Of a stretch of 64,000 nucleotides of DNA, positions 34,668 through 56,607 are shown one piece after another. The position numbers were made by a program, and so were the translations under genes. The notes below the pieces were generated by a model that ran no database searches, was not told the DNA's origin, and saw nothing but the letters and a program-made list of their open reading frames with translations. The stretch's first letter is position 1. The number at the start of each line of letters is the position of its first letter. Origin of the DNA: Bradyrhizobium guangzhouense (GTDB lineage Bacteria > Pseudomonadota > Alphaproteobacteria > Rhizobiales > Xanthobacteraceae); assembly GCF_004114955.1 (NCBI RefSeq), contig NZ_CP030054.1, positions 806,001 to 870,000 of the forward strand, in the 5' to 3' direction.

Positions 34668-35543
34668 ATGGGACCGTGGCGAGTAAACGGGTTCACCAGT
34701 CAAATCGCGAAAGTTGTTGCCCTATCAGCAATTGTAGGGCTTTCCATTGCCTCCTGGAGGGTAGTGAGTGCAGCAGAGATCCAGGTGCCCGACGCAGTCA
34801 AAACGGCGGGAGTCCTGCGCATGGGTCTCAGCAATGCATTGCCACCGCTGCAGTTCAAGGATCCGGAGACGGGCGAATTCAGAGGGATGAATGTAGATAT
34901 TGGCCGGGAAATCGCAGCACGTTTGGGCGTCAAGGCCGAATTCAATGAAATGCTATTTGCGCAGTACATCCCGTCACTGCAGACCGGTCGGATCGATATC
35001 ATCATGGGTGGACTTAGCGACCTCCCTGAACGTCATTCCATTATGGAGATGGTCGATTACTTCAGGGATTTCTATCAGGTCTACGCACTTTCCAATTCTC
35101 AGCTAAAGGAGTTGTCCGATCTTTGCGGTAAGCGGGCCGGCGCCATTCGGTCCACTGTTTGGTACAAAGTGATGCTTGCAAAGAGCGAGTCGGACTGCGT
35201 TCAGAAGGGAATGCCGGCTGTGAAGTTGATTGGCACCGAATCAACGCCAGATACGCGGCTGCAGCTAACGCAAGGCCGAATTGATGCAGCACTGCAGGGC
35301 TTCGTCGAGGTTCCTTACATGATTGCGGAGTCCAAAGGCCTTTACAAGACGATCGGCGAGCCCTTCGCGCCAGAATTCAAGGCAATTGGTGTGCGTAAGG
35401 GCGATGTCGCGCTGCGTGACGCGATCGCCGACGCTCTGGATGCGATGATTAAGGACGGCACTTATGCAAAGATCCTGGCTAGATATCAGTTGAGCAAACT
35501 CGCTATTTCGGAAGTATATCTAAATTCGGAACCGCGAAAATGA
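34668..35543 (+). CDS. Polar amino-acid-type ABC transporter substrate-binding protein
   Basis: Periplasmic binding protein of 291 aa (SBP_bac_3 family). A signal peptide is seen (KVVALSAIVGLSIASWRVVSAAE, cleavage near residue 36). The mature domain has VLRMGLSNALPPLQFKDPETG, FRGMNVDIGREIAARLGVKAEF and DIIMGGLSDLPERHSIMEMVDYF, typical of amino-acid or opine receptors. GGAGGAG lies before the ATG. The stop overlaps the permease start (ATGA). First gene of the catabolic cluster; the ligand is probably the pathway's starting compound. Confidence 0.93.
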   Translation: MGPWRVNGFTSQIAKVVALSAIVGLSIASWRVVSAAEIQVPDAVKTAGVLRMGLSNALPPLQFKDPETGEFRGMNVDIGREIAARLGVKAEFNEMLFAQYIPSLQTGRIDIIMGGLSDLPERHSIMEMVDYFRDFYQVYALSNSQLKELSDLCGKRAGAIRSTVWYKVMLAKSESDCVQKGMPAVKLIGTESTPDTRLQLTQGRIDAALQGFVEVPYMIAESKGLYKTIGEPFAPEFKAIGVRKGDVALRDAIADALDAMIKDGTYAKILARYQLSKLAISEVYLNSEPRK

Positions 35544-36430
35544 GCGCGGTGTCAAACAAGCCTGTACGATCGAGCAGCGGTTCCTCCACTCTCTTTTCAC
35601 GGCCCGATCTGTCGTTGGTCGAGATCGTGCCGCCGCGTTACGTCGGCCGCTGGATAATGGGCGTACTAGTTCTTGGTCTGTTGGTCCTTATTGTAAGGGC
35701 CTTCGCTAACGCGCAGATCGAATGGAACGTTGTTGCCAAATACTTAGCGGCGCCTACAATTCTCGCGGGCTTCTGGCATACGATGATCTTGTCCGTGCTG
35801 GCGATGATTGTCGGTGTCGCGCTCGGCTTGGCTATCTCGATTATGCGAATGTCGGATAATCCGCTCCTAGTCATCGTCGCATTTGGCTACCAATGGTTCT
35901 TTCGCGGGACGCCGGTAATCCTCCAGCTTCTGATTTGGTATAATCTAGCCTTAATCATCCCAGTCATCGGCATTCCCGGTCTGTGGACGGCCCCGACTGT
36001 CGATGTCATCACGCCCTTTTGGGCCGCGCTGCTTGGCCTTGGCATCAATCAGGGTGCCTATACCTCGGAGGTCATTCGCGCCGGAATCCTCTCGGTTGAT
36101 GCGGGCCAGCACGAAGCGGCACAGTCGATTGGCATGACCCGTCTACACGCGCTCTGGAGAATCGTCCTACCTCAAGCAATGCGCGTGATAGTTCCGCCGA
36201 TTGGTAACGAGTTTATTGGAATGGTAAAAATGACGTCACTCGCCAGCGTGATCCAGTACACCGATTTACTTTACAGCGCACAGAACGTGTACTTCGTCAA
36301 TCAGCGCGTGATTGAGCTACTGATCGTAGCAGGCGCTTGGTATCTCCTCGCTGTCTCCATTCTCACGCCGCTTCAGTTGCTGCTCGAATGGCGGTTCGCG
36401 CGGGGAACATCTGTCGTGAGGGTCCGATGA
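35540..36430 (+). CDS. Amino-acid ABC transporter permease (HisMQ family)
   Basis: Inner-membrane permease of 296 aa with five to six hydrophobic segments ([39 protein letters not shown] and others). The conserved EAA loop is [28 protein letters not shown], and the [12 protein letters not shown] segment is typical of the HisMQ family. One permease gene serves as a homodimer. It overlaps both the binding-protein gene and the ATPase gene by four bases. Confidence 0.94.
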
Positions 36431-37194
36431 CCAAGCCTTTGCTCTCAATGAGAAGAGTTAAGAAGCGGTATGGAAATCTACAAGTTCTGGACGGCGTCTC
36501 CCTCGACGTCATGCCCAATGAAGTAGTGTGTTTGATCGGCTCATCAGGCTCAGGCAAAACGACGCTCTTGAGATGTATTAATCAACTGGTTTCCGTCGAC
36601 TCAGGACATATCTGGATAGACGACGAAATCGTGGGCTATCGCCAAGTGGGGTCGCAATTGCGGCCACTAGGCGGTGCGGAACTCGCCCGCCAGCGGACGA
36701 AGACCGCGATGGTGTTTCAACGATTTAATCTCTTTCCCCATATGACTGCTCTTGACAATGTCATTGAGGGACCCGTGCGTGTCTTAAAGCGCAATAAGGC
36801 TGACGTCGTTTGTGAGGCGGAAGCCCTCCTAGCACGCGTAGGCTTATCCGAGAAGCGTAACGCGTACCCTTCCAGCCTGTCTGGCGGCCAGCAACAACGT
36901 GTGGCCATCGCGCGGGCTATGGCTATGCACCCGCGCCTTATGCTCTTCGACGAGCCGACATCTGCACTCGATCCTGAACTCGTTGCCGAAGTCCTCGCGG
37001 CGATGAAGGAATTGGCACGCACCGGCATGACTATGGTGGTCGTTACGCACGAACTTGGATTTGCGAGCGAGGTCGCAGATCGCGTGATCTTTATGGAACA
37101 AGGCCAAATCGCAGAAGAAGGCACTGCCCGAGAGGTTCTTATGCACCCCAAGGGCGCAAGGACCAAAGAGTTCATTTCGGCGGTGCTCGATTAA
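36427..37194 (+). CDS. Amino-acid ABC transporter ATP-binding protein (GlnQ/HisP type)
   Basis: 255-residue ATPase. Walker A is GSSGSGKTT, the Q-loop [17 protein letters not shown], the signature [17 protein letters not shown], Walker [16 protein letters not shown] and the switch VVTHELGFA. The start is the ATG at 36427 overlapping the permease stop; a longer frame upstream is permease sequence. Completes the importer; the LLM monooxygenase gene follows after 45 bases. Confidence 0.95.
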
Positions 37195-37239
37195 CACGCA
37201 GCATCTCTACATACGACCAGAGAGGAATTGAGGAACGAA

Positions 37240-38589
37240 ATGGCAAAGGAAATCGCTTTCGCCGCACTCATACATGCAGCCGGTAGCGCAAGTGCCGCGT
37301 GGCGCCATCCAGATACGGATCCAAAGAAGGCGTTGAGTCTTCAGTACTACACAGAGCTCGCAAAGCTATGTGAAGCAGGCCGCTTCGATCTGATGTTTCT
37401 AGCGGACAGTCCGGGCGTTGATGTCGACAATCTCCACGCAATGGCGCAATGGCCACGCGGGCAAAACGTACTTGAGCCCTTGACGCTTCTCTCTGCGCTA
37501 GCTGCGAGCACAGAAGAGCTTGGCCTCGGCGCCACGGTATCTGCGAGCTTCACTGAGCCGTTTAATATCGCCCGGCAATTCGCATCGCTCGATCACCTTT
37601 CGGGAGGGCGAGCAGCGTGGAACGTTGTGACGACTGCAAACCAGTATTCATGCCGCAACTATGGCTATAAGACGATGCCGCCACACGACGAGCGCTATGC
37701 CAGAGCCAGAGAAGCCCTGGAGGTGGTCCGAGCTTACTGGGATACTTGGGACGATGATGCCTTCATCTTCGACAAGGCAAGAGCTATGAACTTCGATCCG
37801 AACCGATTTCACCACGTTCGATACGAAGGGAAACATTTCAAGGTACAAGGCGGACTCAATATTGCACGTGCTCCGCAGGGGCAACCCGTCATTATCCAGG
37901 CGGGCGCGTCCTCGGTGGGTAGGGAATTTGCCGCAGAAACCGCTGAGGTCGTCTTCGGAACGGGCGCAACTCTTGAGGAGGCTGCGTCCCTCTACAAGGA
38001 TATCAAAAGCAGGATGGCGAAGTACCGCCGTGATCCTTCCGAACTTAAGGTACTCGCCGGCTTCCGCGCGATGGTCGGTTCAACCGAAGCAGAAGCGAAG
38101 GAAAAGCTTCGCCTACTAAACAGTGTGATGCCGATTGAAGCCAAGGTCGCGTATGTCAGTACGGACCTTGAAGTCGACCTGTCGAAGCTGCCACTGGACG
38201 AACTCGTTCCCGAACAGATGATCCCGACTTCCTCAAACCTTCATCAGGGTTATTTCAATATACTTGCGGACATGATCCGATCGCGTAAATTCACGCTAAG
38301 GGAGATTGCACAGCGCTACGAACGCGGATTCGAGATTTTCTGTGGCACTCCAAGCCAGATCGCCGACGAGATGGAACGTTGGATCGACAATGAAGCTGGA
38401 GATGGGTTTATGATAACGTTCCCTTACATGCCGACCTGCCTGGAAGATTTTGTGTCGATGGTAGTCCCCGTGCTCCAGGAACGCGGACTTATGCGCAAAA
38501 GCTACCGCGGCAAGACACTTCGCGAAAACCTCGGGTTACGCTATCCCAAAAACGTCAATACGAAACGTCCAGCTACAGGCGTTCCATAA
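37240..38589 (+). CDS. LLM-class FMNH2-dependent monooxygenase (NtaA/SnaA/DszA family), copy 1
   Basis: 449-residue TIM-barrel monooxygenase that uses reduced flavin and O2. Family marks are FDLMFLADSPGVD, LSALAASTEELGLGATVSASFTEPFNIARQFASLDHLSGGR.AWNVVT (several short motifs in order), HDERYARAREALEVVRAYWDTW, HFKVQGGLNIARAPQGQPVIIQAGAS and FCGTPSQIADEMERW. GAGGAA lies 5 bases before the ATG at 37240. It needs a flavin reductase, most likely the one at 47594, now separated by the IS element. Relatives open N-containing or sulfur-containing rings, or cut N-C bonds of aminopolycarboxylates; the substrate here is unknown. Confidence 0.93.
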   Translation: MAKEIAFAALIHAAGSASAAWRHPDTDPKKALSLQYYTELAKLCEAGRFDLMFLADSPGVDVDNLHAMAQWPRGQNVLEPLTLLSALAASTEELGLGATVSASFTEPFNIARQFASLDHLSGGRAAWNVVTTANQYSCRNYGYKTMPPHDERYARAREALEVVRAYWDTWDDDAFIFDKARAMNFDPNRFHHVRYEGKHFKVQGGLNIARAPQGQPVIIQAGASSVGREFAAETAEVVFGTGATLEEAASLYKDIKSRMAKYRRDPSELKVLAGFRAMVGSTEAEAKEKLRLLNSVMPIEAKVAYVSTDLEVDLSKLPLDELVPEQMIPTSSNLHQGYFNILADMIRSRKFTLREIAQRYERGFEIFCGTPSQIADEMERWIDNEAGDGFMITFPYMPTCLEDFVSMVVPVLQERGLMRKSYRGKTLRENLGLRYPKNVNTKRPATGVP

Positions 38590-38788: not shown

Positions 38789-39724
38789 ATGGCTAGAGCG
38801 CTCAGTTCCCGCGAGATCGATGCGTTTCGGGCTATGATGCAATGTGGGACAACGCTTGCCGCAGCCGAAATTCTAAATACAACGCAACCGTCGGTGAGCC
38901 GGCTGTTGGCGCAAGCGCAAGACGCTGTGAAATTTCGACTGTTCGATTATCGACGGGGCCGTTTGGTTCCAACCCCTGAAGCCAAAATGCTCTTTGAAAT
39001 CGTCCAAAAGCACTATCTTGGCTTGGAAACGATACAGCAAGCCGCTGAAAGTATCAGGTCATCCGGCACCGGCCTATTGCGCATCGCTGCCACTCCGTCC
39101 CTGGCTATGGGCGTTATTCCAACGATCATGAAGGCATTCCGGCAGTCTAGCCCCGGTGTGAGCATCAACCTTCAGACGGGAGGGTCGCTGCAGATCAGAG
39201 ACGGGCTCCTCAATGGCATTTATGATGTTGGCCTGACGACGAGCGGAGCTCATTTCCGAACAGGAGAGTTCGAAATCGAGGTGTGTGACGAATCTGAGGC
39301 CCTATGTGCGGTCTGCGCAAACAGCCCGCTTGCTTCGAAGAAGGAGGTTGCGGTCTCTGATTTTCAAGAGGCAACGCTGCTCACTCTCAATCGTGGAGAC
39401 GATCTAAGTGATTTGTGGCGTCAGACACTCGCGCAGCACGGCGTGAAACCCTCGTCCGAGATCGAGGTCACCTATTCGGCGATCCTCTGTTCGCTCGCCG
39501 CCGCCGACCTTGGCATCGGCGTCGTAAGTCCCTACATCAAACCGCTTATTTCCGATAACGTTCGATTTGTTCGTATTTCGCCGAGAATCTCGGTTAAGAT
39601 GTTCGCAATCTTTCCGGGACATCTTGTGAAGTCATCGCTGTCGCAGCGTTTCACGCGTAGCTTGAAGGAAACGTTCCTGCACAACGACCCCCATGTCGTG
39701 AAGTGCGGCGACTGCACGGAGTAA
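38789..39724 (+). CDS. LysR-family transcriptional regulator
   Basis: 311-residue LysR regulator. N-terminal winged helix: SSREIDAFRAMMQCGTTLAAAEILNTTQPSVSRLLAQAQ with FRLFDYRRGRLVPTPEA. The co-inducer domain follows (LLRIAATPSLAMGVIPTIMKAFRQ). The ATG at 38789 was chosen; a TTG at 38774 is in frame. It sits between the LLM operon and the hydantoinase genes, all on the plus strand, and is the likely pathway regulator. The AT-rich 38735-38785 just upstream may be its operator. Confidence 0.92.
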   Translation: MARALSSREIDAFRAMMQCGTTLAAAEILNTTQPSVSRLLAQAQDAVKFRLFDYRRGRLVPTPEAKMLFEIVQKHYLGLETIQQAAESIRSSGTGLLRIAATPSLAMGVIPTIMKAFRQSSPGVSINLQTGGSLQIRDGLLNGIYDVGLTTSGAHFRTGEFEIEVCDESEALCAVCANSPLASKKEVAVSDFQEATLLTLNRGDDLSDLWRQTLAQHGVKPSSEIEVTYSAILCSLAAADLGIGVVSPYIKPLISDNVRFVRISPRISVKMFAIFPGHLVKSSLSQRFTRSLKETFLHNDPHVVKCGDCTE

Positions 39725-39962: not shown

Positions 39963-41558
39963 GTGCTTGATGCAATCCAGCTTGAATTGATTTGGCGAAG
40001 GCTGATTTCTCTGACTGAAGAGGCCGCTACGACGCTGCTGCGTACCTCCTTCTCATCCGTCGTTCGCGAGTCTAATGATTTTGCGTGCGTTCTCATGGAT
40101 GCCGAAGGACGCTCGTTAGCGCAACCCGCTAACAGCATTCCATCCTTTATCGGTACCGTTCCGCGGACGGTTCGTGGCTTTCTCAAACAGTTTCCACATG
40201 AGACCCTCTCCGAGGGCGATATCCTGATCACCAACGATGTCTGGCTTGGCACCGGCCATCTGCCCGATATCACGGTAGCCAAGCCCATTTTCTTGAATGG
40301 CAATATTGTTGCGTTCGCTGGGTCGGTCACGCACGCTCCTGACATTGGTGGACGCATCCGTTCTGCCGATGCACGCGAGGTGTACGAGGAGGGATTCCAA
40401 ATCCCAATGATGAAGGTGGTTGAGGCGGGTCGAATGAACCGCACATTTGAAAGCCTGCTTCGCCAGAACGTTCGTACGCCAGATCAGACGGTAGGCGACC
40501 TTTATGCGCAGTTTTCTGCACTGCATCTGATGGAGGTGCGCCTCATTTCTTTGCTAAAGGAGTGGGAGCTCCGTTCATTCTCCGAAGTGTCTCAACAGAT
40601 CCGCGGTCGGACGGAAGCCGCGATGCGGCGTGCGATTTCCGCAATACCGGATGGCGTCTATCATGCCACCGCCGTCAGCGATGGATTTGAAAATAGCATC
40701 GTGTTGCGGATGGCGCTTAAAGTTCATGGTGATGAAATCGAGGTTGATTACCGAGGTACAGATCCTCAAGTGCAGCGCTCCATCAACGTCTGCGCTGCTT
40801 ATACGACGGCATACACTGCCTATGGAATCAAAGCCGTTCTTACGCCCGACACGCCAAACAATGACGGTGCGTTGGAACCGCTCAATATTCATGCACCTCT
40901 TGGCTCAATTCTTAATTCAAAGCCGCCCGCAGCGGGCGGGGCACGCGCACTTATCGGACATTTCCTGCCGGCGATGGTCTTGCGTGCGCTGTCACAAGTC
41001 GTGCCGGAGAGAGTCATCTCCGACGTCGGCTCACCTCTCTGGTGCGTAAACCTGGCCGGCGTCAAAGAGGATGGAAAGACTTTCGCTAACTTATTCTTCC
41101 TGAACGGAGGCTATGGGGCCAGCGCGGCCTCGGACGGCGCAAGCGTGTTGTCTTGGCCGAGCAACATTTCCTCCACGCCCGTCGAGGTGCTGGAACGAAC
41201 CGCGCCGATCAGAATTTGCCACCGCCGAATCCGATCGCGGACAGCGGGCAGCGGTCGGTTCACAGGGGGGGCTGGGCAGGAGTTTCTCTTCGAGAATCTA
41301 AATAAAGGGCCTACCATAATTTCCTTTATGGCTGAACGAACTAAGCCAGAAGCTGTGGCGAATGGCTTAGCAGGCGGCGATCCCGGCGCTGCCGGTGAGA
41401 TCCAGATCAACACCGTTCGGGTTGATCCCAAGATACAACACACTATCGACTTTGGTGCCCGCGTTCTGCTGCGCACACCTGGCGCTGGCGGATTTGGTGT
41501 TCCGATCCGCGCTCAGGAAGCGCTGGCCGAAGCCGATGGCGCCAAAGATTTTGTATAA
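39963..41558 (+). CDS. hyuB: Hydantoinase B / oxoprolinase family protein
   Basis: 531-residue HyuB-type subunit. Family motifs are TSFSSVVRESNDFACVLMD, GDILITNDVWLGTGHLPDI, PDIGGRIRSADAREVYEEG and the later DYRGTDPQVQRSINVC, GALEPLNIHAPLGSILN and SGRFTGGAGQE. With HyuA it hydrolyses a lactam or hydantoin bond with ATP, or carboxylates a ketone; the family includes 5-oxoprolinase, N-methylhydantoinase and acetone/acetophenone carboxylase. The GTG at 39963 follows AAGGAG. The hyuA gene begins 17 bases after its stop. Confidence 0.92.
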   Translation: MLDAIQLELIWRRLISLTEEAATTLLRTSFSSVVRESNDFACVLMDAEGRSLAQPANSIPSFIGTVPRTVRGFLKQFPHETLSEGDILITNDVWLGTGHLPDITVAKPIFLNGNIVAFAGSVTHAPDIGGRIRSADAREVYEEGFQIPMMKVVEAGRMNRTFESLLRQNVRTPDQTVGDLYAQFSALHLMEVRLISLLKEWELRSFSEVSQQIRGRTEAAMRRAISAIPDGVYHATAVSDGFENSIVLRMALKVHGDEIEVDYRGTDPQVQRSINVCAAYTTAYTAYGIKAVLTPDTPNNDGALEPLNIHAPLGSILNSKPPAAGGARALIGHFLPAMVLRALSQVVPERVISDVGSPLWCVNLAGVKEDGKTFANLFFLNGGYGASAASDGASVLSWPSNISSTPVEVLERTAPIRICHRRIRSRTAGSGRFTGGAGQEFLFENLNKGPTIISFMAERTKPEAVANGLAGGDPGAAGEIQINTVRVDPKIQHTIDFGARVLLRTPGAGGFGVPIRAQEALAEADGAKDFV

Positions 41559-41575
41559 GAAGGGTTAGATCCGAT

Positions 41576-43699
41576 ATGTACTCGCTTGGTATCGATATTG
41601 GCGGCACGTTCACCGACATTGTCCTCTATTGCACTGATGATGGTCGCGTTGTCGCACACAAGGAGCTGACGACGCCCCATGATCCAACAATTGGAGCCCT
41701 CGCCGGCGTAAAGCAGGTCGTTAACGCCAGCGGCACCGATCCCGATCAGATTGGTCGCGTGGTCCATGCGACAACGTTGTTCACTAACGCTCTCATCGAG
41801 CGTCGTGGCGCAAGGACCGGATTGATCACAACGAGCGGCTTTAGGGATACGCTCGACTTACAGCGGGAGTTTAAATACGATCTGTATGATCTATTTCTGA
41901 AATTGCCAAAACCATTGATTGAGCAGGATGATCGCGTTGAAGTTAATGAACGCACCTTGTTCAACGGGCACATCCAGCATCCACTCAACGAAGACGAACT
42001 TCTAATAAAAACACGCCGGCTGCTCGACAGGGGCGTCACTTCGCTGGCAGTTTCATTCTTGCATTCATATGCCAATGGGACAAATGAACTGCGAGCCAAG
42101 AGCCTAATCGAGCGGCATTTCCCACAAGTCCAACTGTCGATCTCGTCCGAGGTCTGCCCACAAATCCGGGAGTACGAACGAACGTCAACGACCGCCGCGA
42201 ACGCGTATATCAAGCCCATTGCAGACAAATATTTGCGTGAACTCGAGGTGCAGCTAAAGGCCTTTGGAATACCAGGAGCACTTTTCATGATGCTCTCAAA
42301 CGGCGGATTGACGCATATCGAGGAAGCGCGCCGTACGCCGATCGAACTGTTGGAGTCGGGGCCGGCTGCTGGCACATTGGTGGCCGCGTATTTCGGCAAA
42401 CGCTCCGGATTTGACAATGTGCTTGCCTTCGACATGGGCGGGACAACTGCAAAGCTTGGCGTGATTGAGAACGGCGAGCCCCTGATCGCGTATCAGTTTG
42501 AAGCGGCTCGCCAGAAGCGGTTCGCCCCAGGAAGCGGATTGCCGGTGAACATCTCGACTGTTGAGCTTATCGAAATCGGTGCGGGCGGCGGGAGCATCGC
42601 ACATGTTGATGAGCTAGGAATGCTCAAGGTGGGGCCGCAAAGTGCGGGATCGCGACCTGGCCCCGCCTGCTACCCGAACGGCGGAACTGCGCCAACGGTT
42701 ACCGATGCAAACGTTGTTTCGGGGGCGATTGACGTTGATAACTTTGCCGGTGGCACTATGGTTTTGCGCCGCGGAGCTGCAGAGGCGGCGCTCACAGGCG
42801 TCGGGCACGCCATAGAGATGCCATTCATCAAAGTGGCGAATGGCATTCAGGCCATTGTTAACGAGACGATGGCAGCCGCCGCGCGTGTCCATGTTGCTGA
42901 GCGAGGCCACGATATAACTAAGTACAAGCTCATCGTGACGGGCGGTGGCGGCCCGATGCACGGTTGTGACGTCGCCAGACGTCTCGGCATCAAACAGGTT
43001 ATCTGTCCGCCGAATGCTGGCGTCGCGTCGGCACTCGGCTTGTTGATTGCACCCGCGCGTGTTGATCGCTCGAGAACGCTTGGCGCCCTGCTGGGATCGA
43101 TGGAAATCGAGAAACTCGAAGCAGCCTTCAGGCGCCTGGAAGACGACACAAGGCGCGTGATTGCGCAGGCCAGATCTCCGCACAGTACACTTCAGATGGA
43201 GCGCCGCGCCGACATTCGCTTTGTGGGCCAAGGGTCGGAGCTGGTAACAGGACTGCCCGTTGGACCCTACAGCGAGAGCGAACGTGAAACTATTCGCGCT
43301 GCGTTCATCCAGACCTATAAAGGTATCTTCGGCGATATCATACCCGATCTTGATCTTGAGATTATGAACATCCGTGTAACCCTGAAAGAAGTACGAGAAC
43401 CCGCGAAACTTGGTCGGATGGAAGACCCTCCTCGCTCGGAGGGATCTCGCTATCGACCCGTGTATGATGATGCAACTCGCGCTTGGGTTAAAGTCCCAGT
43501 TCTTCGACGATCGGAACTCGGGATTGCAGGATCGATCGAAGGCCCGGCCCTTTTGGATGAGCAATCATCAACACTAGTTGTGCCGCGCGGGAGCCGCATG
43601 ACGTTGGACGCCTCTGGCAATGTCATTGTTCAGCTCAGGGATGATGGTGACAGTGTTACCGTTCCAGTAGCAGAGCACGCCACCGAAATCGGGGCGTAG
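41576..43699 (+). CDS. hyuA: Hydantoinase A / oxoprolinase family protein
   Basis: 707-residue ATP-dependent HyuA subunit. The actin-like ATPase motifs are YSLGIDIGGTFTDIVL (start), VVHATTLFTNALIERRGARTGLITT, VLAFDMGGTTAKLGVI, EIGAGGGSIAHVD and the metal-binding GPACYPNGGTAPTVTDANVVSG. AGAAGGG lies upstream of the ATG. Together with HyuB it is the core of the proposed lactam/hydantoin step. The transcript probably once ran on to the flavin reductase and aldehyde dehydrogenase genes before the IS66 insertion, 266 bases downstream. Confidence 0.94.
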   Translation: MYSLGIDIGGTFTDIVLYCTDDGRVVAHKELTTPHDPTIGALAGVKQVVNASGTDPDQIGRVVHATTLFTNALIERRGARTGLITTSGFRDTLDLQREFKYDLYDLFLKLPKPLIEQDDRVEVNERTLFNGHIQHPLNEDELLIKTRRLLDRGVTSLAVSFLHSYANGTNELRAKSLIERHFPQVQLSISSEVCPQIREYERTSTTAANAYIKPIADKYLRELEVQLKAFGIPGALFMMLSNGGLTHIEEARRTPIELLESGPAAGTLVAAYFGKRSGFDNVLAFDMGGTTAKLGVIENGEPLIAYQFEAARQKRFAPGSGLPVNISTVELIEIGAGGGSIAHVDELGMLKVGPQSAGSRPGPACYPNGGTAPTVTDANVVSGAIDVDNFAGGTMVLRRGAAEAALTGVGHAIEMPFIKVANGIQAIVNETMAAAARVHVAERGHDITKYKLIVTGGGGPMHGCDVARRLGIKQVICPPNAGVASALGLLIAPARVDRSRTLGALLGSMEIEKLEAAFRRLEDDTRRVIAQARSPHSTLQMERRADIRFVGQGSELVTGLPVGPYSESERETIRAAFIQTYKGIFGDIIPDLDLEIMNIRVTLKEVREPAKLGRMEDPPRSEGSRYRPVYDDATRAWVKVPVLRRSELGIAGSIEGPALLDEQSSTLVVPRGSRMTLDASGNVIVQLRDDGDSVTVPVAEHATEIGA

Positions 43700-43965: not shown

Positions 43966-44049
43966 GTAACCGGCATGAGCCCCCCACCTGGGCATCGCGC
44001 GAATGAGCTGCGATACAGCCTGGCATGAACTGTTTTTTGGAGGTGGGCT

Positions 44050-44523
44050 ATGGCAGATGCCATGCATGAAGCCAGGCTTGATGCCAGGCAGGAAAGCGGC
44101 TCCTATCGTCGGATCGAGGTGATCACAGGGCAGCGTCGACGACGGCGCTGGACGGCTGAAGAGAAGGCTCGGATCGTGGCCGAGAGCTTCGAGGAAGGGG
44201 CCAATATTTCCGAGGTCGCTCGGCGCCATGGCGTTGTCCGTGGGTTGCTGACGGTGTGGCGGCGCAAGTTCGCGACGGCAGTGAGCTTTCAGGCGCCAGG
44301 CTTCGTGCCGGTCCGGATCGCTTCCGAGAGCGGTCCGGCGACGGCAGACGAGTCGGACCGGTTAGCGTGCGCGCATAAGGTGCCGCCGCAGATGGCATCG
44401 GCTCCAGGCAAGCTTGGCGGAATGATCGAGATCGAGCTGGGCGGGGCACGCATCCGGGTCGAGCCCGGAGTGGAGCTGGCGACGCTTTCGACAGTGCTAT
44501 CGGCGCTTCGGGGCATCCGTTGA
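44050..44523 (+). CDS. tnpA: IS66 family TnpA (Orf1)
   Basis: 157-residue accessory transposition protein. It has a helix-turn-helix region (RRWTAEEKARIVAESFEEGANISEVARRHGVVRGLLTVWRRKF as consecutive motifs) of the IS3/IS66 OrfA type, and the conserved IEIELGGARIRVEPGVE tail. GGAGGTG lies before the ATG at 44050. The stop overlaps the TTG start of tnpB. Confidence 0.93.
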   Translation: MADAMHEARLDARQESGSYRRIEVITGQRRRRRWTAEEKARIVAESFEEGANISEVARRHGVVRGLLTVWRRKFATAVSFQAPGFVPVRIASESGPATADESDRLACAHKVPPQMASAPGKLGGMIEIELGGARIRVEPGVELATLSTVLSALRGIR

Positions 44524-47593: not shown

Positions 47594-48088
47594 ATGATCG
47601 ATGCAGGTCGCGCCATTGCCACAGCGACGCCCGAAACATTTCGAGAAGTGTCGCGGAAGTGGGCCTCTGGAATCGCCGTCGTAACTGCAGTCGATAGTCA
47701 CGGAGCGCTTTTCGGCACCACGATGAGCGCCGTCGTCAGCCTATCGATCAGCCCCCTGCAATACCTGATATGCATCGACAGAAAGTCGAACTCGCTCCCC
47801 GCCATCACTTCGACAGGGTGGTTTTGCATCAACATGCTCTCCTCATCCCAAGAGCGCATTGCGATGACGTTTGCAAAGAAGGGGACAGATAAGTTTTCGG
47901 CGATTTCCTATCGAGAAGGTCTAAATCGATTACCAATTATCCAGGACGTCGCCTCATATATTATCTGTCACCTGAACAGCAGCTTTGATGGCGGCGATCA
48001 CGTCATAATCGTTGGCGATGTCATCGAGATCGGTCTCCACGATGCGTCTCCGCTGGTCTATTTGAATGGACGCTTTAATAACGGATGA
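47594..48088 (+). CDS. Flavin reductase (FMN-binding split-barrel), probable partner of LLM monooxygenase
   Basis: 164-residue NAD(P)H:flavin oxidoreductase of the two-component monooxygenase type. Motifs: FREVSRKWASGIAVVTAVDSHG, GTTMSAVVSLSISPLQYLICIDRKSNS and FCINMLSSSQERIAMTFA. The end, VIIVGDVIEIGLHDASPLVYLNGRF, is typical of the family. AAAGGAGGG lies about 7 bases before the ATG. It would supply FMNH2 to the LLM enzyme at 37240. The stop overlaps an in-frame start of the next gene. Confidence 0.92.
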   Translation: MIDAGRAIATATPETFREVSRKWASGIAVVTAVDSHGALFGTTMSAVVSLSISPLQYLICIDRKSNSLPAITSTGWFCINMLSSSQERIAMTFAKKGTDKFSAISYREGLNRLPIIQDVASYIICHLNSSFDGGDHVIIVGDVIEIGLHDASPLVYLNGRFNNG

Positions 48089-49586: not shown

Positions 49587-50858
49587 ATGTCCCCTTCAAC
49601 TATCAACGAAAGAGTCAGCATCACACGACTTGGTGGTCAGGATTACAACTTCTTTTTTGGTTACTATAATAAGACGCCGTGGGACGGGCAGGGTCGCCTT
49701 ATCCTAGGCCACCAAGTCGATGAACCTAACTTCCGCATTGGCAGAAATAGCGGCTGCAATGTCGGTTATTTTGATGAAGCGCGTGAGTTTCGGCTGGTTG
49801 ATCGAACCCAAGCCTGGAACTGGCAAATGGGGAGCCAACTACAATGGCTCACCGGCATGCCTGGCCGTAACATAATCTACAATATTCGTACGTCGCACGA
49901 CGCGGGTGGCCCGTATCCCAACATCGGTGCGCGGATTACCGACGTGGATACGGGGCGCACTCGCGATCTCAATATCCCGATTTACGTCGTAGCCGCGAAC
50001 AGCAAATTCGCGATGTGCATTGACTATCGACGTCTCTACAAAACGCATGAGACGATCGGCTACTGCGCACTCGCGGGACGGCTTCCACTGGATAATGCAC
50101 CGGACGATGATGGCATTTGGCGCCTCGACATTGCAAGCGGCGACTCGACACTCGTTGTCAGTTACCGCCAACTTTACGAGCTTGCTCATAAGCCATCCAT
50201 GGATAAGGCAATTCATTGGGTGAGCCATATTGAGATAAATCCGTCATCAACACGTGTGCTCTTCCTTCACCGATGGACAGAGCGTGTTGAAGACGAGACC
50301 TGCTTCTTGCATCGCTTGATCACAATGGATCCGGATGGAAGCAACTTACGTCTCCTTGAATGCTCTGATCATCCATTGCCGCAGCTGGCTCGGCGGTTCG
50401 ATTCAAAGGCCGTAGGTACCTACGACTACGAAAAGTCCGAATACCAGATCTCTCACCCGTTATGGCGGGATGATAGCAGCATCGTCGTCTGGGGACCTCA
50501 CGCCGGACGTATAAACTATCAGGTTTACCAAGACGCGCACAATGGCTTAGTCCAGACTATTGGCGACGGCCTCCTAAGAGAGAACGGACACATGTCCTAT
50601 TCACCTGTGAATATGCGCTGGCTTTTGAGCGATACGTATCCGCATTCCGAGACCAACCTGCGTGATCTCTTCCTTTTCGATGCCAACAATGAAGTCCGGC
50701 TCGACCTCGGAAGCTTTTATACTGATCCAACTCTGGCTAAAGAGAACCGGTGTGATCTTCACCCAAGGTGGAGCCGCGATGGGAAGTGCGTTTGCATCGA
50801 CTCCTATCACGAGAGACGGAGGCGAATGTACACAATTGATGTCTCCGCTCTCGTGTAG
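49587..50858 (+). CDS. Unrecognised protein, predicted beta-propeller
   Basis: 423-residue protein with no signal peptide. I do not recognise a named family, but the pattern FFFGYYNKTPWDGQGRLIL, repeated HP.W..D / SPVNMRWLLSD / LHPRWSRDGKCVCID blades and GPYPNIGARITDVDTGRTRDL suggest a WD40/TolB-like or oligogalacturonide-lyase-like beta-propeller. GAGGAG lies 4 bases before the ATG. It sits between the aldehyde dehydrogenase and glutamate-type dehydrogenase genes on the same strand. It could be a lyase or hydrolase of the pathway. Confidence 0.6.
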   Translation: MSPSTINERVSITRLGGQDYNFFFGYYNKTPWDGQGRLILGHQVDEPNFRIGRNSGCNVGYFDEAREFRLVDRTQAWNWQMGSQLQWLTGMPGRNIIYNIRTSHDAGGPYPNIGARITDVDTGRTRDLNIPIYVVAANSKFAMCIDYRRLYKTHETIGYCALAGRLPLDNAPDDDGIWRLDIASGDSTLVVSYRQLYELAHKPSMDKAIHWVSHIEINPSSTRVLFLHRWTERVEDETCFLHRLITMDPDGSNLRLLECSDHPLPQLARRFDSKAVGTYDYEKSEYQISHPLWRDDSSIVVWGPHAGRINYQVYQDAHNGLVQTIGDGLLRENGHMSYSPVNMRWLLSDTYPHSETNLRDLFLFDANNEVRLDLGSFYTDPTLAKENRCDLHPRWSRDGKCVCIDSYHERRRRMYTIDVSALV

Positions 50859-51101: not shown

Positions 51102-52361
51102 GTGACCACATACAGTGGACCTGTCTTTGACATGGCCGTACAACAGTTCGAAGTGATCGCTGATCACCTGTCTGTGCCGCAGGACGCGAGGGCGCGCTTG
51201 TTAATACCAAAGCGCGCGATCACTGTATCTTGTCCTATTCATCGAGACGACGGCACGACGGCGGTTTTTGAAGGGTATCGAGTTCAGCATCACCTCACGC
51301 TAGGACCTACGAAAGGCGGCACGCGCTTCGCGGCTAGTGTGGACCTCGGCGAGGTTGCTGCGCTTGCGATCTGGATGAGTTGGAAGTGCGCCCTAACCGG
51401 CTTGCCCTATGGTGGCGCCAAGGGCGGCATCAGCGTCGATCCATCGAATCTATCAAGGCGCGAACTAGAGGCATTATCACGCCGCTACATGCAGGAGATG
51501 ATCCCCTTCGTTGGCCCTCACACTGATGTCATGGCCCCCGATATGGGGACCAACGAGCAGGTGATGGCGTGGTTTATGGACACCTATTCGATGTATCAGG
51601 GCCGGACCGTGACGGAGATCGTTACCGGTAAACCGGTCAGCGCCGGAGGGACATTGGGACGCCGCGAGGCGACAGGGCGGGGCGTCGCGCATCTGACGCG
51701 CCGCGTGATGAACGAACAGGGCATCAATCTGAACCATGCAACGGCTGCTGTGCAGGGCTTCGGAAATGTCGGCTCGATCGCCGCACTTGAGCTTCACCAT
51801 ATGGGCGTTAAAGTGATCGCCGTCAGCGACCACACCGGCGCGCTCTACTGCGCTTCCGGCCTCAACATTCCAGAACTCGTGGTACATGCGGCAACACATG
51901 GCAGTCTCTCGGGGTATTCGAGTGAACTAGCCTTCGATCCGCAGGAAGTCCTCACGCTGTCTTGTGATGTTCTTGTGCCAGCCGCGATGGAGCGGGTCAT
52001 CGACGCTGCTGTCGCCACGAAGCTGCGTTGCCGTATTGTCGCTGAAGGGGCCAATGGGCCGACGACACCGGAAGCCGATCTGGTTCTTACGCAGCGACAG
52101 AATGAGATCTTCCTGATCCCGGATATTCTGTGCAATTCCGGCGGGGTAGTGGTGAGCTATTTCGAATGGGTGCAGGATCTGCAACAACTCTTCTGGGAAG
52201 AGGAGGAAGTAGTACGACGCGAATACCAGATTCTCGATCGAGCGTTCGATCGGATGGTGGCGAGGGCGAGCCGCGACAAGGTGTTCAATCGCACGGCGGC
52301 CATGGCCATAGGCGTCGAGCGGGTGCGGGGCGCCAAGAATACGCGAGGTCTATTTCCATGA
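51102..52361 (+). CDS. Glu/Leu/Phe/Val dehydrogenase family protein (glutamate dehydrogenase type)
   Basis: 419-residue NAD(P)-dependent amino-acid dehydrogenase. Motifs: GYRVQHHLTLGPTKGGTRF, PYGGAKGGISVDP with the catalytic lysine, VMAPDMGTNEQVMAWFMDTY, the Rossmann GFGNVGSIAALEL, and the later AEGANGPTTPEAD and LCNSGGVVVSYFEWVQ, diagnostic of the glutamate branch. The GTG at 51102 has GGAG 5 bases upstream; a longer frame from 51015 starts in non-coding-looking sequence. It would remove ammonia from glutamate formed in the pathway. Confidence 0.92.
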   Translation: MTTYSGPVFDMAVQQFEVIADHLSVPQDARARLLIPKRAITVSCPIHRDDGTTAVFEGYRVQHHLTLGPTKGGTRFAASVDLGEVAALAIWMSWKCALTGLPYGGAKGGISVDPSNLSRRELEALSRRYMQEMIPFVGPHTDVMAPDMGTNEQVMAWFMDTYSMYQGRTVTEIVTGKPVSAGGTLGRREATGRGVAHLTRRVMNEQGINLNHATAAVQGFGNVGSIAALELHHMGVKVIAVSDHTGALYCASGLNIPELVVHAATHGSLSGYSSELAFDPQEVLTLSCDVLVPAAMERVIDAAVATKLRCRIVAEGANGPTTPEADLVLTQRQNEIFLIPDILCNSGGVVVSYFEWVQDLQQLFWEEEEVVRREYQILDRAFDRMVARASRDKVFNRTAAMAIGVERVRGAKNTRGLFP

Positions 52362-52677: not shown

Positions 52678-53979
52678 ATGGATACAGAGATGTCATTAGA
52701 AGTAGTAGATACGATCGTGATCGGAGCCGGTCAGGCAGGGCTGGCTATGAGTGAACATCTGACTTCGGCTGGTATTCCTCACGTCGTCTTGGAAAGGCAC
52801 CGGATCGCGGAGAGATGGCGAACAGCCCGGTGGGACTCGCTGGTGGCTAATGGTCCCGCGTGGCATGACCGTTTCCCCGGCCTAACATTTCAGACGCACC
52901 CTGATGCGTTCCCGGGTAAGGAGGAGATCGCGGACTATTTCGTTGCCTACGCAAAGAAGATTGCCGCGCCGGTGCGCTGTGGGGTGGAGGTTACGGCCGT
53001 ACAACGGAACGAGGGACGATTGGGCTTTCGAGTGGAAACCTCGCAAGGGACGTTGGAGGCAAATAACGTAGTTGCAGCGATCGGTCCATTCCAGATTCCG
53101 ACAATACCTCAAGTAGTACCGCAGGACATTGGAGTCGTCCAAATTCACTCGAGCGACTACCGAAACCCGGAGCAGTTGCCTAGAGGGGCCGTGTTGGTTG
53201 TTGGCGCAGGATCTTCCGGAAGCCAGATCGCAGACGAACTTCTGCGCTCTGATCGGAAGGTCTATCTCTCCGTGGGCCCCCACGAACGCCCCCCGCGCTC
53301 CTACCGCGGCTACGACTTCTGCTGGTGGCTCGGCGTCTTGGGAAAGTGGGATAATGAAGCAAGAGTTCGCGGTACCGAGCACGTAACGATCTCCGTCAGT
53401 GGGGCCCGTGGGGGATACACGGTCGACTTCAGGAAGCTCGCCGCAGACGGAATGATGCTTGTTGGCTCAACTGAAGCGTTCGAGGCAGGCAACGTAACGT
53501 TTGCCAGTGATCTCGCGAAGAATGTCGCGATGGGTGACGCCTCGCTCTTCACTCTGTTGGATGAGGCCGATGAATACGTTAGGCGGAATGGACTTGCACT
53601 TCCGGAGGAGCCTGAAGCGCGCAGGTTACTCCCGGACCCGGACTGCCTAATGAATCCGCAGCGTGAGCTCAATCTAAAGACTGCCGGCGTGAATACGATC
53701 ATCTGGGCGACGGGCTTTTCGTCGGACTACAGCTGGCTTAAGGTCAAGGCCTTCGACGAGGCCGGAAAACCCGAACACCAACGTGGGGTATCCTCGGAGC
53801 CGGGCGTCTACTTTGTGGGCTTGCCTTGGCAATCTAGGCGAGGGTCCGCTTTTATCTGGGGTGTCTGGCATGACGCTAAATATATTGCTGATCGTATCTC
53901 TACTCGGCGGCGTTACCTGGAACATCACGTCGTAAAATCGGAGAAAGTTGATCCACGAAAAGCGACGGGAGGCCCCTAA
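52678..53979 (+). CDS. FAD-dependent NAD(P)H monooxygenase, CzcO/FMO-like
   Basis: 433-residue flavoprotein. FAD site VIGAGQAGLAMSEHL near residue 15, NADPH site VVGAGSSGSQIADELL, the FMO-like linker HSSDYRNPEQLPRG, and WATGFSSDYSWL near the C-terminus. These mark the CzcO/flavin-monooxygenase family that N- or S-oxygenates or performs Baeyer-Villiger reactions. The ATG at 52678 was chosen, with 52690 as the alternative. Its end overlaps a longer version of the RidA frame, but the likely RidA start is 65 bases downstream. Confidence 0.9.
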   Translation: MDTEMSLEVVDTIVIGAGQAGLAMSEHLTSAGIPHVVLERHRIAERWRTARWDSLVANGPAWHDRFPGLTFQTHPDAFPGKEEIADYFVAYAKKIAAPVRCGVEVTAVQRNEGRLGFRVETSQGTLEANNVVAAIGPFQIPTIPQVVPQDIGVVQIHSSDYRNPEQLPRGAVLVVGAGSSGSQIADELLRSDRKVYLSVGPHERPPRSYRGYDFCWWLGVLGKWDNEARVRGTEHVTISVSGARGGYTVDFRKLAADGMMLVGSTEAFEAGNVTFASDLAKNVAMGDASLFTLLDEADEYVRRNGLALPEEPEARRLLPDPDCLMNPQRELNLKTAGVNTIIWATGFSSDYSWLKVKAFDEAGKPEHQRGVSSEPGVYFVGLPWQSRRGSAFIWGVWHDAKYIADRISTRRRYLEHHVVKSEKVDPRKATGGP

Positions 53980-54043
53980 GTTTTTTGGCGAAACAGTTCA
54001 CCAGTTGGGGTTGCGGGTGCTGACACGTAAGAAGGAGCAAGAA

Positions 54044-54460
54044 GTGGCTCATAGGCGGATTCGGAAATTCAATACGAAACACACTTATCCGGAGCAGAAG
54101 CTCGACAATGATCTATGTCAGGCAGTGGTGACTAGCGGCGGAAAAATTATTTGGCTACGGGGCCAGTGCCCCCAGAGCTTGAATGACGCCGTCAACATCG
54201 ACAGCCATGATCCTGTCGAGCAGACGCATAAGGTGATGCAGAATATTAAGCAACTCATCGAAGAAAGTGGCGGTAAGATTGAACATTTGGTCAAGGTTGT
54301 CGTTTACCTTACCGACGTGCGGCATCGGGAGGCCGTTTATCGAACGATGGGTCAGTACATAAAGGGCGTGCATCCCGTGTCCACAGGACTTGTTGTCCAA
54401 GCGTTGGCGCGACCTGAGTGGCTTGTTGAAATCGACGCCACAGCGGTGATACCCGAGTGA
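54044..54460 (+). CDS. RidA/YjgF/UK114 family protein
   Basis: 138-residue enamine/imine deaminase-type protein. Family residues: YPEQKLDNDLCQAVVTSGG, WLRGQCPQSL, EQTHKVMQNIKQLIEESGGKIEHLVKVVVYLTDV (short motifs in order) and the C-terminal RPEWLVEIDATAVIP, where the ligand-binding Arg/Glu lie. The GTG at 54044 follows AAGGAG by 6 bases. It probably hydrolyses a reactive enamine or imine made by the oxygenases or amino-acid dehydrogenase. The DUF1028 gene follows after 4 bases. Confidence 0.9.
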   Translation: MAHRRIRKFNTKHTYPEQKLDNDLCQAVVTSGGKIIWLRGQCPQSLNDAVNIDSHDPVEQTHKVMQNIKQLIEESGGKIEHLVKVVVYLTDVRHREAVYRTMGQYIKGVHPVSTGLVVQALARPEWLVEIDATAVIPE

Positions 54461-54464
54461 GCGT

Positions 54465-55139
54465 ATGACGTTTTCCCTAGTTGCTCGGTGCGACCAGACT
54501 GGAATGTTCGGCGTAGCGATTTCGTCTTCATCTCCGGCTGTCGCTTCAAGGTGTTCATTCGCGCGAGCTGGTGTCGGCGCGGTCGCTTCGCAGAACGTAA
54601 CTGATCCCTCGCTAGGACCATTGGCCTTGGATGCGATGGAGAGCGGCATGTCCGCGTGGGAAGCCGTCGAAGAAGTGAAACAACGTAGTCGATTTATCGA
54701 GTATCGCCAGCTACTGGCAGTTGACCGCGACGGAAATGCCGCTGTTTATTCAGGGCCCAATTCACTAGGCATATGGGCTCAGACGAGCGGAGAAAATGTC
54801 GCGGCCGGCGGCAATCTCCTAGCAAATGACGGAGTACCGCACGCAATTGTCGATGCATTCATTGGTTCGTCAGGGCATCTTGGTGACCGCCTGATTGCGT
54901 CACTAAGAGCCGGGTTGGCCGCCGGCGGGGAGGCCGGTCCGTTACACTCAGCCGGCATGAAGCTTGTTGACCAAGTCAGTTGGCCAGTCGTGGACCTGCG
55001 CTGCGACTGGACACAAGAGTGTCCGATCGAACTGCTCGTTTCTGCCTGGAAGGTCTACAAACCCCAACTTAACGCCTACGTGAAGCGCGCGCTTGATCCA
55101 CGAGCGGCTCCTTCGTTCGGCGTCCCGGGTGACGAATAG
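54465..55139 (+). CDS. DUF1028 family protein (Ntn-hydrolase-like)
   Basis: 224-residue protein of DUF1028. It opens MTFSLVARCDQTGMFGVAISSSSPAVASRC and has GVGAVASQNVTDPSLGPLALD, LLAVDRDGNAAVYSG, NLLANDGV and HLGDRLIASLRAGLAAGGEAGPLHSAG, all typical. The family is predicted to be N-terminal-nucleophile hydrolases and is often next to RidA proteins, as here. It could hydrolyse an amide in the pathway. ATG at 54465, four bases after ridA. Confidence 0.88.
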   Translation: MTFSLVARCDQTGMFGVAISSSSPAVASRCSFARAGVGAVASQNVTDPSLGPLALDAMESGMSAWEAVEEVKQRSRFIEYRQLLAVDRDGNAAVYSGPNSLGIWAQTSGENVAAGGNLLANDGVPHAIVDAFIGSSGHLGDRLIASLRAGLAAGGEAGPLHSAGMKLVDQVSWPVVDLRCDWTQECPIELLVSAWKVYKPQLNAYVKRALDPRAAPSFGVPGDE

Positions 55140-55155
55140 CGCTCCGACGAGCGCT
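55138..55155. terminator. Possible hairpin terminator after the DUF1028 gene
   Basis: AGCGCTC (55138-55144) and GAGCGCT (55149-55155) form a perfect 7-base stem with a 4-base loop, beginning at the stop codon. No T-run follows, so it is a weak case. Confidence 0.35.
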
Positions 55156-55443
55156 CGCCATTGGCCGCACCGCTCCCTTGATCGTCTTCATGACGCGGTG
55201 CCAGAGCACAGAGTAGATTGAGCTATACGCTTCAAGTCAGCAGTCTACGCAAACCCGCGGATGTTGACAGAAGACCCCTGAATTGTGGGCATTGGCAAAT
55301 GTCGGGCAGATTGGGGTTAATTTTGTATCGACCTTTCATAGCGGAGATCTGATGCTGTCTCGGACAACCATGATGACGCTGTAGTCTGGCGACGAGCGAA
55401 CGCTACGAACCTCAGAAGAACTGGAAAACTGAGCAAAATACAG
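55156..55443. other. Gap upstream of the M20 deacylase gene
   Basis: About 290 bases with no gene I can support. The region is AT-richer after 55300 and may carry a separate promoter for the gene at 55444. Confidence 0.35.
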
Positions 55444-56607
55444 ATGGACAGCATCGCCATTATTCAGAGGTTGGTTGCGTTTCCGACCGTCAGCCAGGAA
55501 TCAAACCTCAATTTGATTGACTTTGTCGTTCAGCTGCTTCGCGAAAACGGCGTGACCTGCCGTCTTGTCTATTCGCAGGACGGGCGAAAAGCGAGTTTGC
55601 TGGCTACGATCGGACCCGATGATCGGCCAGGCGCAATTCTCTCAGGTCATACGGACGTCGTTACGGCCGATGATCAGAGCTGGACCAAACCGCCATTTAG
55701 CGCCACACGACAAGACGGTAAGCTGTATGGTCGTGGAACTGCAGACATGAAAGGCTTTGTGGGCTGTGCCATTTCCGCCGCGCTTAAGGCGTCGAAGACA
55801 CGCTTAAATGCGCCTCTCTACCTGGCACTATCATATGATGAAGAGATTGGCTGTGTAGGAGTGCGAGGTCTGCTTGACTCGATGGTGAATGAGCTGCAAC
55901 GGCAATCTTTCTGTATCGTTGGTGAGCCAACAAATATGAACGTTGCAATCGGACACAAAGGCAAGGTTGCGGCTCGCGTTACTTGCGTTGGCCGGGAATG
56001 CCATTCCGCATTGGCGCCTACCGGGATAAACGCGATCCATTTGGGTTGCGAATTTGTCGAAGCCATCCGCAGAGAGCAAGCTAAGTTGTGCGACGAGGGC
56101 GCGCGGGATGCGAGCTACGAAATTCCGTATACAACGCTTCACGTCGGCACGATTAAATCGGGGGGAATGCTCAATATTGTGCCGAGCCGATGCGAGTTAG
56201 AGTTCGAGATCAGGAATGTCGCAGCGGAGATACCTGAGGAGATATTGAGTAGGCTGCGAACTAGAGCGAGTGAAATCGCCAATGGCGCAAGGACCATCGC
56301 GTCCGAAGCCGCTATAAATATTGATGTAGTCAACAGTTATCCCGGGCTCAATATCGCCTGCGACGCCCCGGTCGTCCATCTTGTCAAGTCTCTCACCGGT
56401 GACGCCAACGTGGTGAAGGTGCCATTCGGAACGGAAGCCGGCCTGTTTTTGCAGAGACTGGGGGTTCCAACGATCGTTTGCGGACCGGGGTCGATGCAGC
56501 AGGGTCACAAGCCGGATGAGTTTATCGAAATTGACCAGATTGACCGCTGCGACAAGATGTTAGATAGATTGATTGACCGACTAGCAAGCGGCCATGGCTT
56601 CCCCTGA
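55444..56607 (+). CDS. M20 family deacylase (ArgE/acetylornithine deacetylase-like)
   Basis: 387-residue metallo-deacylase of the ArgE/DapE group. Metal and catalytic motifs: LSGHTDVVTADD (first His and Asp), GRGTADMKGFVGC (bridging Asp), SYDEEIGCVGVRGL (catalytic Glu and ligand Glu), CIVGEPTN and the later GPGSMQQGHKPDEFIEIDQI with the last His. The dimerisation domain has GRECHSALAPTGINAI. It removes an N-acyl group from an amino acid. Its catabolic neighbours suggest it works on a pathway intermediate rather than in arginine synthesis. Last gene of the cluster. Confidence 0.93.
   Translation: MDSIAIIQRLVAFPTVSQESNLNLIDFVVQLLRENGVTCRLVYSQDGRKASLLATIGPDDRPGAILSGHTDVVTADDQSWTKPPFSATRQDGKLYGRGTADMKGFVGCAISAALKASKTRLNAPLYLALSYDEEIGCVGVRGLLDSMVNELQRQSFCIVGEPTNMNVAIGHKGKVAARVTCVGRECHSALAPTGINAIHLGCEFVEAIRREQAKLCDEGARDASYEIPYTTLHVGTIKSGGMLNIVPSRCELEFEIRNVAAEIPEEILSRLRTRASEIANGARTIASEAAINIDVVNSYPGLNIACDAPVVHLVKSLTGDANVVKVPFGTEAGLFLQRLGVPTIVCGPGSMQQGHKPDEFIEIDQIDRCDKMLDRLIDRLASGHGFP

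Follow-up and report, generated by a model that had tools for sequence, protein, structure and literature searches.

The hinFLHG operon and a related cluster in Bradyrhizobium

In the degradation of histamine by Pseudomonas, imidazole-4-acetate is turned into aspartate by a known route. This conversion is textbook chemistry, and the original report of the hin genes is said to be that of de la Torre 2018 on Pseudomonas putida U. As listed in an excerpt of a later paper, HinF is an FAD monooxygenase (EC 1.14.13.5), HinL an enamine deaminase, HinH an amidase, HinG an amidase (EC 3.5.1.8) and HinI an aspartate ammonia-lyase (PMC6467879). Excerpts of two further papers describe the hinFLHG operon, PA5393-PA5390 in P. 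aeruginosa, as leading from imidazole-4-acetate to aspartate and HinK as a LysR regulator sensing imidazole-4-acetate (PMC8231116), which is named as the cofactor of HinK (PMC10912698). Here, we analyzed a window of 64,000 nucleotides, i.e., the whole stretch from position 806,001 to 870,000 of contig NZ_CP030054.1 of Bradyrhizobium guangzhouense, which carries a catabolic gene cluster at positions 34668-56607. Its last four genes (52690-56607) code for proteins of the HinF, HinL, HinH and HinG families in the same F-L-H-G order as in hinFLHG. We consider it likely, with a probability of roughly 80%, that this block is a hinFLHG-type operon, that an ATP-binding cassette (ABC) importer, an LLM monooxygenase and a flavin reductase encoded upstream feed it, and that the HyuBA proteins and a beta-propeller protein encoded between them form a separate module.

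As far as the excerpted Hin literature goes, the window shares with the operons of P. putida U and P. aeruginosa the four families, their order and the predicted chemistry from imidazole-acetate to aspartate, but its block is preceded by the genes for the importer, the LLM monooxygenase and the flavin reductase, and a hinK gene was found neither next to it nor elsewhere in the genome. By analogy, the right-hand end of the cluster is a known pathway rather than an undescribed one. The original prediction, made from the letters of this DNA, had proposed an undescribed pathway and had itself listed, as counter-evidence, a match to an established pathway whose substrate is defined; hinFLHG with imidazole-4-acetate is such a pathway for the ring-opening part, so that the claim of a wholly new pathway falls away for the window. 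What stands of it is the full combination, since we found no described pathway uniting an ABC importer, an LLM monooxygenase, HyuAB and hinFLHG in the open-access literature. The broader idea was upheld: the cluster is catabolic, its substrate is very probably an N-heterocycle, and its steps include uptake, oxygenation, ring opening and deacylation.

Further described systems share single families with the cluster. The Rut pathway likewise has an LLM monooxygenase, a flavin reductase and a RidA protein, but the three window proteins scored far under the Rut equivalog cut-offs (RutA 51.7 of 498, RutC 36.4 of 169 and RutF 65.8 of 255 bits). No match to RutB, RutD or RutE was found among the cluster proteins scanned. 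Because the RutA, RutC and RutF cut-offs were not reached, we rejected the Rut pathway, in agreement with the original prediction. The window HyuA and HyuB proteins belong to the same two-subunit, ATP-dependent amide-opening family as caprolactamase and N-methylhydantoinase, but differ in being accompanied by an oligogalacturonate-lyase-like propeller, and the caprolactam pathway was rejected because they stayed below the equivalog cut-offs for CapA and CapB (466 and 190 of 1000 bits). The LLM family is common to the window, Bacillus YtnJ and NtaA/EmoA; in the Bacillus YtnJ operon, too, the monooxygenase is accompanied by an amino-acid ABC importer, whereas the window cluster lacks an N-acetyltransferase. 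Two other candidates, the MSMEG_0569 nitrilase-cluster flavoprotein (350 of 498 bits) and acetophenone carboxylase, also remained under their NCBIfam cut-offs.

Proposed conversion of imidazole-acetate

The block starts with the gene of a HinF-type FAD monooxygenase (FMO; 52690-53979), a predicted imidazole-4-acetate hydroxylase assigned by its clade and sequence identity. It is followed by the genes of a HinL-type RidA protein (54044-54460), a predicted formimino deiminase with 50-86% identity to the RidA proteins of 15 hin-like clusters, and a HinH-type DUF1028 hydrolase (54465-55139; PF06267, 5.4e-63), a predicted ring-opening amidase. The last gene codes for a HinG-type M20 deacylase (55444-56607; PF01546/PF07687), a predicted N-formylaspartate deformylase with 38-61% identity to the M20 proteins of hin-like clusters. 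The identity of the block as hinFLHG type is supported by the families, their order and their linkage, and order and names suggest that HinH is the DUF1028 and HinG the M20 protein.

The HinF-type FMO would hydroxylate the imidazole ring of imidazole-4-acetate, and the DUF1028 protein (HinH) would open the resulting imidazolone to N-formimino-aspartate. RidA (HinL) would then strip off the imino nitrogen as ammonia, yielding N-formyl-aspartate, from which the M20 protein (HinG) would free formate and L-aspartate, the latter entering the tricarboxylic acid cycle. Which intermediates arise, and how the two middle steps are shared out between HinH and HinL, we infer from the chemistry of the families. 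The predicted products are thus aspartate, formate and ammonia, and not glutamate, which had been envisaged as the product of the deacylation. Genes for the next enzyme, aspartate ammonia-lyase, are annotated in two of the clusters opened for comparison, and the genome of the window contains two homologs of 50% and 44% identity on its contig C1, which may be either aspartases or fumarases. The enzyme set and these aspartate ammonia-lyase neighbours had led us to suspect the route from imidazole-acetate to aspartate before the hin literature was consulted. Routes for vitamin B6, the thiamine pyrimidine, ergothioneine and indole-acetate had also been considered, some of them prompted by GMC, NCS1 permease or M20 genes, and were dropped because of the family order, the aspartate ammonia-lyase neighbours and the HinK match described below.

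Conservation of the core block

We opened 50 loci with relatives of the DUF1028 protein, comprising 34 from Hyphomicrobiales genomes (mostly best matches; 139 of 397 genomes matched, and L044 was first fetched via its FMO) and 16 plasmid regions hand-picked from 235 matching records, of which L139-L141 were reached via the LLM search. The presence thresholds were set by hand, and several of the opened genomes are close kin, so the loci do not represent independent events. A RidA gene was present in 48 of the 50 loci, at a distance of at most 1 kb from the DUF1028 gene in 44, an M20 gene in 38, an FMO gene in 34 and a HinK-like LysR gene in 37 (at a loose threshold of 33% identity); all four core genes occurred together in 29. 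If the four loci reached by other means are set aside, the remaining 46 contain RidA in 44 cases (40 within 1 kb), M20 in 34, the HinK-like LysR in 33, the FMO in 31 and all four core genes in 26. The linkage of DUF1028 and RidA therefore exceeds chance. Of the 34 loci with FMO, RidA and DUF1028 genes, 26 have them in this sequence on the same strand and less than about 4 kb apart.

Searching with the FMO at E <= 1e-100 gave matches in 35 of 398 genomes of the phylum, including that of the window and three at just 48% identity. Twenty of these places were opened, and the FMO-RidA-DUF1028 order was present in 18, with M20 added in 15. Besides its occurrence in Proteobacteria, the core block was found on one Streptomyces and one Mycolicibacterium plasmid, both of them actinobacterial. 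The window FMO shows 55-73% identity to those of 54 other opened loci and falls into a clade of 59 rows with 100% support in a maximum-likelihood tree calculated by a quick method. This clade comprises 51 rows linked to RidA and DUF1028 (the window included), two linked to RidA only and six unlinked ones, and outside of it are eight rows (six of them distinct) of unlinked Bradyrhizobium paralogs with 45-49% identity.

At the protein level, Thr2 of DUF1028 is invariant in all 16 aligned sequences (window and 15 cluster members, 47-77% identity), as is a GVPGD motif near the C-terminus. Thr2 would be the N-terminal nucleophile, as expected of an N-terminal nucleophile (Ntn) hydrolase. Nothing was found under the name DUF1028 in the open-access literature. 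Our assignment would give this unnamed family a concrete reaction sequence, and likewise its neighbours that are usually annotated as acetylornithine deacetylase.

Probable exchange of the ring-hydroxylating enzyme

The FMO is absent from a minority of the 50 loci: a HinF gene was present in 34, the gene of an HpaB-type two-component monooxygenase in 12 (L142, L143, L139, L085, L100, L101, L105-L107, L111, L116 and L117) and neither in four, one of which (L110) carries an HpaB fragment. No locus of this set contained both, and a flavin reductase match lay in the region in 8 of the 12 HpaB-type loci. Fisher tests of HinF against HpaB gave 1.5e-8 for the 50 loci and 1.0e-7 for the 46, values which ignore shared ancestry and the choice by hand. 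Both enzymes are encoded in one locus selected by its FMO (L197), with HpaB about 5 kb off and beside its own LysR gene. HpaB-type enzymes probably replace HinF at the ring-hydroxylation step; no account of such a replacement was found in the open-access literature.

Regulators

Independent support for the hinFLHG identification comes from a HinK-like LysR gene beside the block in Burkholderia. The LysR protein encoded after the block in Burkholderia multivorans matched the PDB chains 3fzv and 6m5f with 545 bits over 301 residues, and the title of entry 6m5f is HinK of P. aeruginosa. A P. aeruginosa protein with 80% identity to the B. multivorans LysR matches 3fzv from end to end with a single mismatch. 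A fold model of HinK was poor (predicted local distance difference test score, pLDDT, of 51.5) and served only to obtain the PDB titles. Eight of the 20 phylum loci, none of them alphaproteobacterial, and a Pantoea plasmid encode a LysR protein with 55-92% identity to the Burkholderia one beside the block.

The LysR protein of the window itself (38789-39724) scored only about 33 bits against the HinK chains 3fzv and 6m5f, and showed 38-44% identity to the LysR proteins accompanying HyuBA in Burkholderiales. Judged by these similarities, it is not a HinK ortholog and resembles the regulator of the HyuBA-propeller module.

The probable feeding step

The cluster starts with the genes of an ABC importer consisting of an SBP_bac_3-type solute-binding protein (34668-35543; PF00497, 1.2e-28), a permease (35540-36430; PF00528, with the cystine and ectoine permeases as nearest NCBIfam models, both under the cut-off) and an ATPase (36427-37194; PF00005, start taken from the annotation). 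They are followed by the gene of an LLM flavin monooxygenase of the NtaA/DmoA family (37240-38589; TIGR03860, 513 bits against a cut-off of 280), whose nearest solved structure is YtnJ. A flavin reductase (47594-48088; PF01613, 9e-34) likely supplies FMNH2 to the LLM enzyme, and the next gene codes for an aldehyde dehydrogenase (48103-49539; PF00171, 1.5e-153), which remained under the cut-off of all 25 NCBIfam models listed.

Apart from the window itself, relatives of the LLM protein with at least 49% identity were found in 12 places (six from the order search, five on plasmids and one in genome G015). Eight of them have a DUF1028 gene at a distance of no more than about 10 kb (L217, L220, L221, L139, L140, L141, CP155823 and L037); CP155823 was placed by its coordinates, and L037 is not independent because it was found via its FMO. 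Like that of the window, the LLM gene of L139-L141 and L037 is surrounded by genes for an ABC importer. Because the LLM gene is recurrently linked to hin-like clusters and lies amid importer genes, we take the importer, the LLM enzyme and the flavin reductase as the probable feeding step of the hin block. Most likely, judging from this linkage, they would take up a compound containing an imidazole ring and shorten it by oxidation to imidazole-acetate, perhaps together with the aldehyde dehydrogenase.

The genes flanking the core vary among the 50 loci, from which the query proteins for them were also taken: OYE-type enzymes were found in 11, a second type of aldehyde dehydrogenase in 10, GMC enzymes in six, LLM enzymes in five and an NCS1 permease in three. 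The LLM front end and the exchange of HinF for HpaB are testable predictions. Among rhizobia, Rhodobacterales and enterobacteria, plasmids carry clusters of the imidazole-acetate type whose entry routes vary.

The HyuBA-propeller module

The genes hyuB (39963-41558; PF02538, 7.8e-138) and hyuA (41576-43699; PF01968/PF05378/PF19278, nearest solved structure an N-methylhydantoinase) follow the LysR gene. The window HyuB shows 64-66% identity to relatives in Burkholderiales, where HyuBA adjoins an oligogalacturonate-lyase-like beta-propeller gene. The corresponding window gene (49587-50858) was missing from the gene set of the original prediction and codes for a protein of 423 amino acids which matches the propeller fold of oligogalacturonate lyase (Ogl). 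HyuB, HyuA and this propeller protein form a separate module seen in Burkholderiales, and this module and the FLHG block each occur without the other in the opened loci. The proposed role of HyuAB as the ring opener is unsupported. The module would have come to lie inside a hin-type cluster, and the combination of the ABC importer, the LLM enzyme, HyuAB and hinFLHG was encountered on this plasmid lineage only.

An IS66 element (43966-47139) lies downstream of hyuA; it contains transposase genes and a UPF0149 passenger, its ends match in 17 of 20 positions and it is flanked by a perfect 8-bp target duplication. The longest open stretch across the rejoined flanks is at most 104 amino acids; therefore, the site looks intergenic and probably no gene was broken. 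The UPF0149 gene at 46481-47107 rides inside this copy, and other Bradyrhizobium plasmids have IS66 relatives annotated with this passenger as well.

Alternative explanations

Several observations weigh against the assignment as a hinFLHG-type operon. The arginine of canonical imine deaminases is missing from HinL-type RidA in 16 of 16 aligned proteins: the segment expected to hold the substrate-binding arginine reads P-[VIC]-x-T-G in all 16, so that HinL-type RidA would be a divergent Rid protein. By their sequences, these proteins are still a recognisable Rid subfamily, with a conserved N-terminal FNTxxTYPxQ motif and without the canonical arginine. The M20 protein passes the acetylornithine deacetylase equivalog TIGR01892 (372.1 against a cut-off of 297.7 bits) as well as a second NCBIfam model for this enzyme (495 against 412 bits). 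Because the gene bears this annotation in 14 of the 16 opened plasmid clusters, the name cannot separate ArgE from HinG, and because the hin identification rests on the whole block and not on the name of the M20 protein, it is not moved by this result. The F-L-H order on one strand fails in 8 of the 34 loci having all three genes. No HinK ortholog was found in the genome of the window (best match 30% identity, 83 bits), and an alphaproteobacterial cluster LysR as query reached 63 bits at best in this genome. Four of the 12 LLM places (L218, L219, L222 and L206) lie without a nearby hin-like cluster, and the importers of L139-L141 and L037 are of the spermidine/putrescine type, whereas that of the window is of the polar amino-acid type. 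More distant LLM relatives on plasmids (L207 and L208, 45-46% identity) have no hin genes nearby either. Finally, the link to the tested Hin enzymes of P. putida and P. aeruginosa is an indirect one via gene order, names and HinK, and the natural substrate may differ from free imidazole-acetate because the front-end enzymes vary.

This variation is the argument for a possible, although not probable, alternative, in which the FLHG proteins act on a related but different imidazole- or pyrimidine-like ring, e.g., one carrying an N-methyl or hydroxymethyl group, with the hin genes of Pseudomonas as a specialised branch of a broader family. The importers and the front-end oxidoreductases indeed differ between the loci, as counted above, but RidA and M20 are stable companions of DUF1028, and front ends of different kinds can all lead to imidazole-acetate.

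Another explanation, which we regard as unlikely, is a mosaic of unrelated catabolic pieces gathered on the plasmid without joint function. The IS66 insertion may be read as a sign of it, and so may the HyuBA genes, which lack their usual TctC neighbour and are split from the propeller gene by IS66, the flavin reductase and the aldehyde dehydrogenase genes. Nevertheless, the IS66 site looks intergenic, all reading frames are intact, and the LLM gene, importer genes and FMO- or HpaB-RidA-DUF1028-M20 blocks recur together elsewhere. In addition, five publicly available plasmids of peanut Bradyrhizobium, each about 980 kb in size, carry 34400-58900 in full length with 100.0% identity; two of them are named B. 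guangdongense and are each one base shorter across this interval.

Doubtful as well is an integrated version of the hinFLHG-type route, in which an imidazole-bearing, amino-acid-like compound would be imported, cut by the LLM enzyme and the reductase, oxidised by the aldehyde dehydrogenase to imidazole-acetate and passed to HinFLHG, while HyuAB would clear over-oxidised hydantoin-acetate, a side product, as N-carbamoyl-aspartate. In this version, the imidazole-acetate core would be a hub with interchangeable front ends, and its ring hydroxylase could be exchanged for an HpaB-type enzyme unrelated to it. A single undescribed pathway in which a lactam, hydantoin or N-acyl amino acid would be broken down, HyuAB acting as the ring opener and M20 as the source of glutamate, is very improbable, even though the genes are contiguous, intact and on one strand and HyuA is related to caprolactamase and N-methylhydantoinase: the FLHG and HyuBA-propeller blocks occur separately in the opened loci, a substrate of the FLHG block is named in Pseudomonas, and the glutamate-type dehydrogenase does not recur (0 of 50 DUF1028 loci and 0 of 20 phylum FMO loci).

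Gene inventory and genomic context

The window belongs to the second contig, of 979,173 bases, in a Bradyrhizobium genome of 8.2 Mb. As originally described, the genes for the importer, LLM enzyme, flavin reductase, HyuA/HyuB, aldehyde dehydrogenase, FMO, RidA, DUF1028, M20, dehydrogenase and LysR proteins are present and intact on the + strand, and Pfam, NCBIfam and the public annotation of a matching plasmid concur for 34668-56607. Their order is three ABC genes, LLM, LysR, HyuB, HyuA, IS66, flavin reductase and aldehyde dehydrogenase, followed by the propeller gene, the Glu/Leu/Phe/Val dehydrogenase (51102-52361; PF00208/PF02812, start taken from the annotation), FMO, RidA, DUF1028 and M20/ArgE. 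The FMO was also found at 100% identity in a second Bradyrhizobium genome (G036), and a B. zhengyangense contig contains the genes from the solute-binding protein through HyuA at 100% and stops just past HyuA. In the open-access literature, nothing was found on rhizobial hin genes with LLM or HyuAB.

Hin-like clusters of other composition were observed in Leisingera (L137 and L151), with a different LLM enzyme, two aldehyde dehydrogenases, an OYE-type enzyme and dodecin, and the one in L137 lies a few genes downstream of hutIHGU. Klebsiella accounts for 105 of the 235 plasmid records with a DUF1028 match, and the one record opened (L146, NC_023332.1, a conjugative plasmid) carries a RidA-DUF1028-ArgE cluster with an ABC importer, a quinone oxidoreductase, a GST and a type II dehydroquinase, which is probably an imidazole-compound catabolic island.

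Upstream of the cluster, the interval 16201-33640 contains genes for a [NiFe] hydrogenase large subunit, HypF and a HoxX-like protein, representing a plasmid hydrogenase region, together with a sigma-54 response regulator and a histidine kinase. On the other side, the - strand at 57808-60921 codes for an Ldh_2-type dehydrogenase, a ketopantoate reductase-like protein and a further flavin reductase, longer than the first and resembling the reductase of p-hydroxyphenylacetate hydroxylase.

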